DNA from: Thermotoga sp. Mc24
GTDB taxonomy: Bacteria > Thermotogota > Thermotogae > Thermotogales > Thermotogaceae
DNA: 64,000 bases
Assembly (NCBI RefSeq): GCF_000784835.1
Contig: NZ_JSFH01000009.1
Span: forward strand, 1-64,000
Direction: 5' to 3'
The position numbers and the translations under genes are program-made. The notes beneath the pieces are model-generated. The model was given only the letters and a program-made list of their open reading frames with translations, was not told the DNA's origin and ran no database searches. Shown in pieces: positions 39,010 to 41,592 of this stretch (the first letter of the stretch is position 1; each line of letters begins with the position of its first letter).

Positions 39010-39451
39010 AAACACCGACGAACACGAGTATGTCTCCCACACTTATAACGAACTTCCTTCCCCACGGAAGATAAACTGGTATGTAGTCTGCGAGGAAAGT
39101 TTTCCAGGAAAATTCAGTGAATGCAATGTGTTTGAAATCGAGATCCAGATTGAGAAGTTTAAGGGTGGGCTCCCATACTGGCATCCTTCCACCGTTGACG
39201 CTCATGGTGAAGCCGTTCAGAACAGCACCGACTGCCATCGGTTTGAAGCCGGGAATATCTCTGTTCCAGATAAAGAAAAGAAAGAGCATCACAAACGATA
39301 GGGGAACGAGAATTTCCTTCCATGGAAGAAGCTGAAGCACAAAAGGAACGGCGAATAGATAGAGCCCTTTGTAGTTGTATTTCAAAACGTTTTTGATGTT
39401 TCCCGTCAGTATCGAAAGAAGCAAAGCTATAAGAAAAACATCGATCATCAT
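38945..39451 (-). CDS. DUF5317 family membrane protein
   Basis: 168 residues with five to six hydrophobic segments, beginning MMIDVFLIALLLSILTGN. The short basic link NGFTMSVNGGRMPVW in the middle is typical of DUF5317 proteins as I recall them. Function unknown. It overlaps the HD-GYP gene as ATGA, so the two are probably co-translated and may act together at the membrane. Its 3' end lies under the end of degV. SD-like GGAGGAAG precedes the start. Confidence 0.75.
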   Translation of the reverse strand: MMIDVFLIALLLSILTGNIKNVLKYNYKGLYLFAVPFVLQLLPWKEILVPLSFVMLFLFFIWNRDIPGFKPMAVGAVLNGFTMSVNGGRMPVWEPTLKLLNLDLDFKHIAFTEFSWKTFLADYIPVYLPWGRKFVISVGDILVFVGVFIFFALKPRFQTQPSRVPHES

Positions 39452-40734
39452 GTTTCTTCTTCCTCCTTTTCTTTTTCGAGGATCTCAAAGAGCAGATCGA
39501 CGAGTCTGGGATCGAGAACGGTTCCCTTCATGTTTTTCATCATGATTTCCTTTGCCTCTTCGTGACTGAGTGCTTTTCTGTAAGGTCTGTCACTTGTGAG
39601 CGCTTCGTACACATCGGCAACGGATATTATCCTGGAAGGCAGAGGGATCTCTTCTCCTCTCAGACCATCGGGATATCCTTTCCCGTCCCACCTTTCATGG
39701 TGGTGCCTTACCCATTTGCTCTCTCTGTTGTTGAATATGTCAACTTCCCTCAGTATGTCTTCACCCATGATAGGGTGGTTTTTCACCATCATCATTTCTT
39801 CTTTTGAGAGGATGGTGGGCTTCTTCAGAATGTGGTCTGGAATTCCTATTTTTCCTATGTCGTGCAGGAAAGCGGCGTTGTAGATTCTTTCAACCATCTT
39901 CGGTGAAAATCCAAGTCTTTTGGCCATTTTCTTTGCAAGTTCTGCCACTTTCTCGCTGTGACCGCGGGTGTATTCATCTTTTTCTTCAAGACTCTTTGCA
40001 AGGAGTTTCAGGTGTTCCAGTTTTGCTTCGTAGTACTTGTACCTGTAGTAGTTTCCTACCTGAATGGAAAGAACGGCTGCCAGAGATACGGGAATGGCTA
40101 CGAACCCGATGTACTGATAAAGAATGTAAATGACTGCTATGACAGGTATCATGAGGGCCATGCTCGTGACAGGACCTGACAGAACCTTGGAAGCGGTTTC
40201 ACGGATATCACCTTTGGTGAGGATGTAAACTCCAAAAAACACAAAGACGTTGTTGATTAGAAAATAGACAACGGTACTCAGTAGAATAGCGAGAATATTT
40301 TGAAAGGTGTTTGTTCCGGATAGACGGTGGAAGAGGAGGCTTGTTATATAAGTGGTCACAGCCAGCTGAGAGAAATTGAAAATATAGCGGCTGACAGGAT
40401 AACGCTCTCCGAAGAAGAGCTTTATCATCTTGAAGGTAATAGCCGATGATGCTGCCACAAGGGAAGCTTCTAACGGATTCAAAAGAGCTGCCGTGAAGAT
40501 GTTTACAATGAAAACAGCAGAAGTTTCCACTTTTCCCCGTGTGAATTCAAGAGTTTTTATATTGACAGCATCAAAAAACAGGTTTGTGAGAAAAAAGAGA
40601 ATTATCAAACCCCAGTTGTGAGGACTCTGAAAAAGATTCTCCAGGTCCGGAAAGAATAAGAACAAGAACCCCATGAGTATTAGAAAAGAATAGATAAGGA
40701 AATTTTTTTCAGCCAAGTCCTTTTTCTCTCTCAT
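39448..40734 (-). CDS. Membrane HD-GYP phosphodiesterase
   Basis: About 230 N-terminal residues contain seven to eight hydrophobic segments (a membrane sensor of unknown ligand), then a short helical linker and a cytoplasmic HD-GYP domain. The domain has AAFLHDIGKIGIPDHIL and HHERWDGKGYPDGL, the latter matching the HHExxDGxGYP signature of cyclic-di-GMP phosphodiesterases. The start is ATG at 40734, with AAGGAGTGAG upstream, giving 428 residues. A perfect TATAAT lies about 40 bases upstream. The substrate is inferred from the intact motif. Confidence 0.88.
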   Translation of the reverse strand: MREKKDLAEKNFLIYSFLILMGFLFLFFPDLENLFQSPHNWGLIILFFLTNLFFDAVNIKTLEFTRGKVETSAVFIVNIFTAALLNPLEASLVAASSAITFKMIKLFFGERYPVSRYIFNFSQLAVTTYITSLLFHRLSGTNTFQNILAILLSTVVYFLINNVFVFFGVYILTKGDIRETASKVLSGPVTSMALMIPVIAVIYILYQYIGFVAIPVSLAAVLSIQVGNYYRYKYYEAKLEHLKLLAKSLEEKDEYTRGHSEKVAELAKKMAKRLGFSPKMVERIYNAAFLHDIGKIGIPDHILKKPTILSKEEMMMVKNHPIMGEDILREVDIFNNRESKWVRHHHERWDGKGYPDGLRGEEIPLPSRIISVADVYEALTSDRPYRKALSHEEAKEIMMKNMKGTVLDPRLVDLLFEILEKEKEEEET

Positions 40735-40772
40735 ATACTCACTCCTTGTGAGGGATACGAGGGCAGGGGACA

Positions 40773-40802: not shown

Positions 40803-40889
40803 TTACCAGATTTTGTTAGCCCCAACAACTGCCATCAGTGTTCCGAACAGGCTCCCAAGAACGAGGACTATTTTCATGAGCTTTCTCAT
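40803..40889 (-). CDS. Hydrophobic small ORF, 28 codons
   Basis: ATG at 40889 to TAA at 40803 encodes a 28-residue peptide: a basic start (MRKLMK), a hydrophobic stretch IVLVLGSLFGTLMAVVGA, and a short NKIW end. A strong GGGGGG purine run sits 6-11 nt before the ATG. The pattern fits a single-span membrane peptide or a short leader/signal-like peptide. No family recognised. It lies alone between engB and the HD-GYP gene. Translation is plausible from the ribosome binding site, but not proven. Confidence 0.5.
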   Translation of the reverse strand: MRKLMKIVLVLGSLFGTLMAVVGANKIW

Positions 40890-41004
40890 GGTTTCCCCCC
40901 TTTCGTTGCTTTATTTCAAAGCTTCGCTCGTTACCGGATCTTCGCTGACCACATCTCGTGTCTCTCCGCTCAAAAATTGCCCCTGCCCTCATAATTCTAT
41001 TTTA
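40890..41004 (-). promoter_or_regulatory. Candidate structured leader upstream of the small ORF
   Basis: A 115-nt gap after the engB stop. On the minus strand it reads GAGGGCAGGGGCAATT early on, has the repeated word GCGAAG twice, and ends with a GCTTT-GAAAT-AAAGC hairpin just before the ribosome binding site of the small ORF. An AT-rich start (TTGAAA about 30 nt before the G-rich element) could hold a promoter. It does not match a riboswitch class I can recall. This is a hypothesis from composition and small inverted repeats. Confidence 0.35.
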
Positions 41005-41592
41005 TCAATTTTCTTTCAACAGTGTTGATATCAAATCCAGAAGTTCACTTATTCCCTCTCCAGTGACTGATGAGGTCGGTATGATCGTGTACTCCCCGTA
41101 TCTTGAGAACACCTTTCGATGTTCCTCGAGCTTTTTTGCCCTCTCTGACATCTTCACTTTATCCATCTTAGTGAGAACGATGGTAAACGGAATGTTCAGG
41201 CTTTTCATCCACTCTATCATCATGAGGTCGCTGTCCTGAGGAGGGAGCCTTCCATCCACGAGGAGAAAGACCATCTGAAGGGACCATCTGTTCTTGAAAT
41301 AGTCCTCTACGAGTCGCTTCCAGAGCATTCGTTCTTTTTTGGAAACTTTCGCGTACCCATATCCCGGAAGATCCACGAAGTAGTATTTTGAGTTAACAAG
41401 ATAGAAATTTATCGATCTTGTTTTTCCGGGAGTTTTGCTCACAAAAGCGATCTTTTTGTTAAACAGCGAATTGAGAAGGGAAGATTTACCCACGTTCGAT
41501 CTTCCAACAAAAGCAACCTCACCTTTCAAGGGAGGAGGATAATCACCTGGAGTTCTGGCTACTTTAACTAGTTCTACATCCCGAATAATCAT
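41005..41592 (-). CDS. engB: Ribosome-biogenesis GTPase EngB (YsxC/YihA)
   Basis: GTPase required for late 50S assembly. [19 protein letters not shown] is the P loop, [14 protein letters not shown] the switch II region with DLPG, and LTKMDKV the NKxD equivalent. It has 195 residues. The gene starts at ATG 41592 and is read divergently from cobO across a 49-bp gap. Confidence 0.95.

Follow-up and report, generated by a model that had tools for sequence, protein, structure and literature searches.

The window, a 64,000-nt stretch of DNA from a Thermotoga genome (G000, 1.82 Mb), contains a 28-codon gene on its minus strand, flanked on that strand by engB (41005–41592) and a membrane HD-GYP gene (39448–40734). 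We propose, with somewhat better than even confidence, that this gene encodes an exported peptide and that the neighbouring membrane phosphodiesterase, of the c-di-GMP type, senses it; of this proposal, we infer the export, the cut and the binding. The strongest support for this ligand–receptor reading is the pairing of the two genes, together with a peptide tail that is fixed among diverged tandem copies. Its weakest points are the three inferred steps and the thinning of the pairing outside Thermotogota.

Results

A conserved 28-codon gene downstream of engB

The small gene has the following features in the window:

40803–40889, minus strand: 28-codon ORF for the peptide precursor MRKLMKIVLVLGSLFGTLMAVVGANKIW, followed by a stop codon; conserved in 8/8 loci, dN/dS 0.19
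40895–40900, minus strand: GGGGGG ribosome-binding run, conserved in alignment A1

The first-pass annotation had argued that this ORF is translated, on the grounds of a charged start, a hydrophobic span and the GGGGGG run. All three are present, and AAAGGGGGG sits 5 nt 5′ of the ATG. We compared the ORF across eight loci, comprising the 7/7 genomes of the genus with the region downstream of engB and one genome from a sister genus (G041). Every locus has 28 codons with an intact start and stop and no indel; the claim of translation thus stands, with no stop or frameshift in any of the 8/8 loci. Pairwise differences, summed over pairs of the eight copies, are distributed over codon positions 1, 2 and 3 as 167:49:271. 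The Nei–Gojobori dN/dS that yields the value of 0.19 gives 0.52 and 2.8 for the other two forward frames at the same loci. Complementary frame −2 also has a low dN/dS (0.249) because its codon positions mirror those of the true frame. For the related peptides of families f2 and f8, dN/dS is 0.063 and 0.118. We conclude that the 28-codon ORF is a real gene.

Two further coding candidates were rejected. A 58-aa ORF that would make the leader itself coding (40816–40992) has a frame that is broken by indels between species, and some species have an in-frame N-terminal extension, MKGGEA, which the window genome and G041 lack.

The peptide gene pairs with MASE9–HD-GYP genes throughout Thermotogota

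The neighbour downstream, which had been called a membrane HD-GYP phosphodiesterase, was recognised by Pfam profiles as a MASE9 plus HD-GYP protein, and the MASE9 (PF20972) match scores 197.8 bits against a cut-off of 24.3:

39448–40734, minus strand: MASE9–HD-GYP protein, candidate receptor phosphodiesterase (Pfam MASE9 E 2.5e-58, HD_5 E 2.6e-38)
40066–40734, minus strand: membrane sensor part (MASE9), with an ECF S-component fold predicted from structure models

We searched 103 Thermotogota genomes with a profile of the eight peptides (A3). The strong matches were only those eight; weak matches adjoin engB directly on its 3′ side in f2 genomes, or precede similar genes elsewhere. The long frame that follows the peptide encodes MASE9 plus HD-GYP in 10/12 loci checked, and of the remaining two, one is cut by a contig end (G013) and the other does carry MASE9 and HD (G100). 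MASE9 itself was found in 42/103 genomes, with one gene each, one of them split by a contig end. Upstream of MASE9 there are one to three hydrophobic ORFs of 25–36 codons with a ribosome-binding site at 39/39 of the loci with >300 nt of upstream sequence, and the peptide tail is still visible at three loci cut by contig ends (G033, G036, G101).

A second profile, A6, built from 28 peptides, matches 42/103 genomes, each with an E value of 7.8e-8 or better. These are the MASE9 genomes minus G101, where only the tail is present, plus G016, whose next gene lies off the contig because the peptide ends 39 nt before the contig end. An extra peptide copy in G033 is likewise at a contig end. Only two A6 matches are weaker than 1.1e-5, both with E 0.017 and both inside long frames. 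No unlinked peptide copy, without MASE9, was found in the 103 Thermotogota genomes except at contig ends. The seven peptides tested have no above-cut-off match in Pfam or NCBIfam; the peptides are a family without a model in either database, and exemplify functional families smaller than those usually annotated. We conclude that the peptide gene pairs with MASE9–HD-GYP throughout Thermotogota.

The strict pairing with one receptor-like gene, the lack of unlinked copies in the 103 genomes other than at contig ends, and the low dN/dS all argue against a type I toxin, in which a stem joining the two ends of the RNA, and perhaps an antisense RNA, would restrain a small, hydrophobic, lethal peptide. 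The size and hydrophobicity of the peptide would suit a toxin, as would the base pairing between the two ends of the unit (described below), but we consider this explanation very improbable.

The tail is the most constrained part of the precursor among diverged tandem copies

The window precursor can be divided into two parts:

40830–40889, minus strand: signal-peptide-like part, codons 1–20, with a predicted cut after Ala20 (Ala or Ser at this place in 44/44 precursors)
40806–40829, minus strand: predicted mature octapeptide VVGANKIW, codons 21–28 (tail kept synonymously in G039, G038 and G040)

In 44 distinct Thermotogota precursors, we located the tail by its [AVTLIM][VI][GA] start. The residue before the tail is Ala in 25 and Ser in 19, and the front part has 17–21 residues in all 44. 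The tail is 8 residues long in 35/44 and 13–15 residues long in 9/44, and contains W in 43/44, the exception being that of G102. Position −3 is occupied by Leu (17), Ile (13), Val (10), Ala (3) or Phe (1); Leu or Ile, found there in 30/44, is tolerated, not typical, for signal-peptidase sites. The precursors have the charged start, hydrophobic core and small −1 residue of signal-peptidase I substrates. Judged from sequence, the layout looks like a signal peptide followed by a short mature peptide, with a putative export step and cut.

Tandem copies allow the two parts to be compared within a genome. In G039, three tandem copies have the common tail LVGNVTWW; the numbers of identical, synonymous and nonsynonymous codons in the 8-codon tail are 3/5/0, 4/4/0 and 4/4/0 for the three pairs, as against 3/1/14, 3/6/10 and 1/5/12 in the remaining codons. 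The pair in G038 differs by 6/2/0 in the tail and 2/2/13 in the rest, and the pair in G040 by 5/3/0 and 3/5/12. In G034 and G035 the tandem copies hardly differ anywhere along their length, and therefore give no evidence that only the tail matters. Across the Thermotoga set, amino acids are no better conserved in the tail than in the front part (pN 0.165 versus 0.117 for codons 2–20), though the tail has the lower dN/dS (0.10 versus 0.24). The tail thus varies between Thermotoga species (VVGANKIW in the window genome, VVGGNQIW in G001; another genus has AVGNIEVW) while being fixed among tandem copies, indicating that tails are fixed per genome and differ by species. Where tandem copies have diverged, no other part of the precursor is under as strong a constraint as the tail.

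The same comparison bears on the possibility that the peptide is an uncleaved single-span microprotein with its N-terminus inside, either forming a subunit of MASE9 or inhibiting it, in the style of MgrB–PhoQ, with the tail as an outer contact. The charged start, a hydrophobic span of membrane length, GxxxG-like spacing and strict pairing with one membrane protein are all consistent with such a protein, and constraint on the tail would also fit a contact face. However, Ala or Ser directly precedes the tail in 44/44 precursors, some genomes have several precursors for one receptor, and the fronts of tandem copies diverge by 10–14 nonsynonymous codons around a fixed tail, which would be unusual for a helix that packs on a partner. 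We therefore regard an uncleaved microprotein as unlikely, though with more weight than any of the other alternatives considered here.

A predicted ECF S-component fold for the MASE9 sensor

The HD-GYP motifs of the window protein (H291 D292, H345 H346 and G353 Y354 P355) are conserved over 53 sequences, and alignment A7 shows no change at H291 or D292 in the 41/42 Thermotogota MASE9 genes of sufficient length. An AlphaFold model of the whole protein, made with 53 sequences (pLDDT 91.8), matches solved HD-GYP structures (4mcw, E 2.9e-11). The motifs are intact and the model has the HD-GYP fold, and hydrolysis of c-di-GMP or cGAMP is the putative activity.

Residues 36–212 of the whole-protein model resemble ECF S components (FolT, 5d0y, Z 15.5; TmRibU, 5kbw, Z 14.3). 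When the sensor part was modelled alone (32 sequences, pLDDT 86.8), the top 19 entries were all ECF proteins, comprising 18 S components and CbiM, with Z scores from 14.3 (FolT, 5d0y) to 12.1, a level to be read with the caveat that helical bundles can reach Z ~13 through shared arrangement, with 12–14 possible. We take the S-component match as probably real because a single family is on top and is followed by a drop to Z 8.1. Sequence identity to S components in the structural alignments is 6–14%. MASE9 is accordingly predicted by these models to have the S-component fold. The S components of ECF transporters bind ligands from outside, and the predicted fold makes a ligand-binding role likely for MASE9; its fusion to an enzyme argues for a sensor.

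The sensor part diverges faster than the HD part in 5/7 relatives of the window protein, either by a wide margin or over residues 1–45. In G002, G004, G005 and G041, identity to the window protein is 54–59% over residues 46–212 and 26–36% over residues 1–45, compared with 81–88% over residues 213–428. The proteins of G006 and G001 differ from it mainly in residues 1–45 (36–37% identical), and that of G003 is close to it throughout.

A candidate peptide signal and its receptor

Under the ligand–receptor reading, the 28-codon ORF would give rise to a precursor consisting of a signal peptide of ~20 residues and the 8-residue tail VVGANKIW. The precursor would enter the inner membrane and be cut after Ala20, placing the octapeptide outside the cytoplasm, where it could bind an outward pocket in the MASE9 domain of the neighbouring protein. 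Binding would alter the activity of the cytoplasmic HD-GYP domain, in either direction, and so how much c-di-GMP, or a related cyclic dinucleotide, is present. Together the genes may encode a peptide signal that the cell makes itself and the phosphodiesterase that receives it, with the signal acting between cells or within a cell.

The pairing extends, in patches, outside Thermotogota

A contig scan with the MASE9 alignment gave just two Thermotogota loci, and we therefore sampled other phyla through a genome search. A first draw of 390 genomes at growing distance included 61 with MASE9, 19 of those outside Thermotogota. We fetched 23 outside loci, 22 of which had upstream sequence, in some cases <800 nt; three outside MASE9 matches (L149, L150, L151) fall under the Pfam cut-off. 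We applied a strict definition of the peptide ORF: 18–45 codons, a ribosome-binding site, 11/14 hydrophobic residues and W among the last three residues. Such an ORF, as exemplified by MKAKVLKALFVLASLLLAGGAHFRW in G276, is present at 10/22 first-draw outside loci. The remaining sequence of all the loci analysed, read on both strands (363,538 bases), contains three strict ORFs, so ~0.15 would be expected at the 22 loci where 10 were observed. Grouped by output, 10/18 loci encoding HD-GYP proteins have a strict ORF versus 0/4 with other or no outputs. No such ORF was found upstream of MASE9 in G238 or G325, nor in G162b, where there is no W.

We made a second draw from the phyla of G319 and G115, which added 21 MASE9 loci, with proteins that mostly carry HD-GYP-like, often degenerate, domains. 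A strict ORF is present at 2/21 (G404 and G424, the latter from the genus of G319), an ORF of the relaxed definition only is present at three more (G455, G478, G479), and no such ORF was found at 16/21, three of which have <250 nt of upstream sequence. Over both draws, 12/43 MASE9 loci have a strict ORF, compared with ~0.3 expected by chance. This count leaves out weaker look-alikes (G311, G295, G263 with its cut-off tail, and G455, G478 and G479) and the repeated 13-aa ORF of G177; G203b is doubtful. We conclude that the peptide–MASE9 pairing outside Thermotogota is real but patchy.

From these data we entertain, at a little under even odds, a broader picture in which linear-peptide signalling of this kind is widespread. 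Mostly W-containing tails would be cut from signal-peptide-like precursors and read by an S-component-like MASE9 domain that drives a c-di-GMP phosphodiesterase; the tails would be species-specific and the sensors fast-changing, like pherotypes, and the system would be near-universal with MASE9 in Thermotogota and partly present in several phyla.

Several outside loci have individual features. MASE9-like domains are fused to a sigma-54 activator, a SpoIIE phosphatase and a histidine kinase (L137 in G203, L139 in G211 and L149 in G295), and no W-ending ORF was found upstream of these three, of which L149 is under the cut-off. A 5-codon ORF, MNKWG followed by a stop codon, precedes the MASE9–HD-GYP genes L145 and L158 (G177), L143 (G319) and L157 (G424). 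Three 96-bp tandem repeats come after it in G177, each containing MNKWGRTKCERWA and a stop codon; in G319 and G424 it is followed by a longer peptide that itself begins with MNKWG and ends with KWG. This pattern hints at the KWG end as the signal. In G276 (L144), the tail of a second, cut-off copy (LAGGAHFRW and a stop codon) lies directly upstream of the complete peptide and has the same end.

Relation to known signalling systems

The SHP/Rgg and ComS/ComR systems of streptococci likewise start from very short, unannotated precursors whose N-terminus is charged and whose body is hydrophobic; the C-terminal peptide is short (with tryptophans in ComS), and its gene adjoins the receptor gene. 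There, the peptide is imported and acts on a transcription regulator in the cytoplasm; the receptor proposed for the window peptide is instead a phosphodiesterase of the c-di-GMP type, located in the membrane of bacteria that have an outer envelope. An adjacent gene for a cytoplasmic receptor of the Rgg/ComR type, as in RRNPP systems, is absent from the window locus, where the neighbours are engB and MASE9–HD-GYP.

In MgrB–PhoQ (PMC8404706) and DbfQ–DbfRS (PMC12714742), too, a membrane sensor is acted on by a small protein of the membrane or periplasm, and DbfQ, like the window peptide, is encoded beside its partner. MgrB and DbfQ are larger and act on histidine kinases, whereas the window family consists of peptides of 25–36 aa paired with an HD-GYP enzyme. 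The ECF S components FolT, RibU and ThiT have in common with MASE9 the predicted fold, but MASE9 is fused to a signalling enzyme. With the HD-GYP c-di-GMP phosphodiesterases 4mcw, PA4781 and DvhD, the window protein has in common the catalytic domain, its motifs and its fold; it differs from them in that its input is a MASE9 sensor with a peptide gene next door.

Peptide-based density signalling was reportedly described in T. maritima in 2005, and TM0504, the gene of that report, was not mentioned in the literature that our search returned. The T. maritima transcriptome map lists 13 putative ncRNAs, four of which have small ORFs of <40 aa without peptide evidence (PMC3636130). In the literature searched, which leaves most subscription journals outside, we found no occurrence of the word MASE9 and no description, for bacteria with an outer envelope, of a peptide signal that feeds straight into the breakdown of a second messenger; the search also returned nothing that brings together three of the subjects energy-coupling factor, S component, sensor domain and HD-GYP. 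For most membrane sensors joined to c-di-GMP enzymes no ligand is known. At this locus the ligand seems to be encoded next to its sensor, which makes the question testable with synthetic octapeptides.

The leader RNA and promoter-like sites

The leader and its surroundings have the following features:

40922–40928, minus strand: leader word AGCGAAG (AGCGRAG recurs in other leaders)
40940–40946, minus strand: leader word AGCGAAG
40964–40970, minus strand: leader word AGCGGAG
40980–40990, minus strand: 5′ arm of a closing stem, GAGGGCAGGGG (compensatory changes; perfect stems in other genera)
40759–40769, minus strand: 3′ arm of the closing stem, CCCCTGCCCTC, which pairs with the 5′ arm
40999–41028, minus strand: promoter-like TCAACA-18-TAAAAT with TG before the second hexamer (a consensus match only, 9/12)

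The leader sequence is conserved across the close genomes. Four properties had been assigned to it in the first-pass annotation: a G-rich inverted-repeat copy, a repeated word, a hairpin just before the ribosome-binding site and a lack of fit to known riboswitch classes. The inverted repeat was borne out, with GAGGGCAGGGG at 40980–40990 (minus) and 40759–40769 (plus) giving two window matches versus 0.02 expected. The resulting closing stem connects the beginning of the leader with the spacer, a short distance ahead of the HD-GYP start, and two of its pairs have changes on both sides among eight close genomes. Other perfect stems occur at the equivalent place (CGCCGGGGCAT in G008; CCTGCCGGGG in G009, G011 and G012; GCCGGGGTGCA in G015; CGGGCACCGCGACC in G102; GGGTGCAGCACCCC in G100; and, outside the phylum, AAATGGACCGACATCGAA in G375), each matched by 0/100 spacer shuffles. 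The stem is also visible in G010 and G013, and was not found in the five f3 and eight f8 loci examined.

The repeated word held up as a cluster of three; a single AGCGRAG is common, with 23 window matches versus a shuffle mean of 15. It occurs one to three times within 150 nt before the peptide at 27/33 Thermotogota loci, and up to four times before the peptide at 5/6 loci outside Thermotogota; loci with tandem copies were left out of this survey of words and stems. The hairpin (GCTTTGAAATAAAGC) pairs well in the window genome, but is disturbed in other species and absent from the consensus folds of the close genomes. The absence of a known riboswitch class was upheld, as the leader has no match in Rfam 15 at gathering scores; with E values up to 10, the best match was a chance miRNA match outside the leader, and the leaders of 18 loci have none up to E 0.5.

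We considered and rejected AGCGRAG pairs as the mark of a regulon. The tandem pattern has 3–6 matches per genome in seven Thermotoga genomes versus 0–6 in a reversed control; two matches per genome are the peptide leader, and some of the others recur between species. An extra AGCGGAG is located just before the HD-GYP start in seven f2 loci (L085, L089, L090, L091, L092, L097, L098), where, by its sequence, it can be used as a ribosome-binding site.

Promoter-like sites number two in our search versus 1.0 expected, and the TAAAAT is kept in 8/8 close loci. A perfect TATAAT is present between the peptide and HD-GYP genes in five f3 genomes (G030, G031, G033, G035, G037) and also in G000, G001 and G039, a count that stands without a chance control in spacers that are AT-rich and have poor −35 matches. 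For these reasons the TATAAT is only a hint of separate transcription of the HD-GYP gene.

A small membrane regulator or an RNA-controlled leader peptide had both been thought conceivable at the outset. The first, taken as a translated small ORF that may regulate the HD-GYP neighbour, is now strongly supported by its coding conservation and by its pairing with MASE9–HD-GYP genes over a phylum. The second, as the main function, is unsupported because the peptide is conserved in f3 genomes while the AGCGRAG leader and stem are missing from 5/5 f3 loci examined, because some genomes have tandem peptide copies, and because selection acts on the amino acids. In a leader-peptide or RNA switch, the closing stem would let either translation of the 28 codons or binding of a ligand to the leader control the HD-GYP gene in cis, as the conserved leader, the compensatory changes in a stem that ends shortly before the HD-GYP start, and the AGCGRAG before that start in f2 genomes could suggest. 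Set against it, beyond the three points just given, are the lack of an Rfam family and, weakly, the TATAAT between the two genes in the five f3 genomes, which is found in G000, G001 and G039 as well. We consider control of this kind quite improbable. Attenuation and arrest leader peptides also combine a short ORF and a structured leader upstream of a gene, but the window family keeps its peptide without the leader in f3, has tandem copies and is tied to one partner protein.

The leader may have a part in setting expression under the ligand–receptor reading; as a guess, the closing stem and the AGCGRAG words might serve to make different amounts of peptide and receptor. Elsewhere in the window, a lysine riboswitch at 237–415 on the plus strand (103 bits) is the sole Rfam match at gathering scores.
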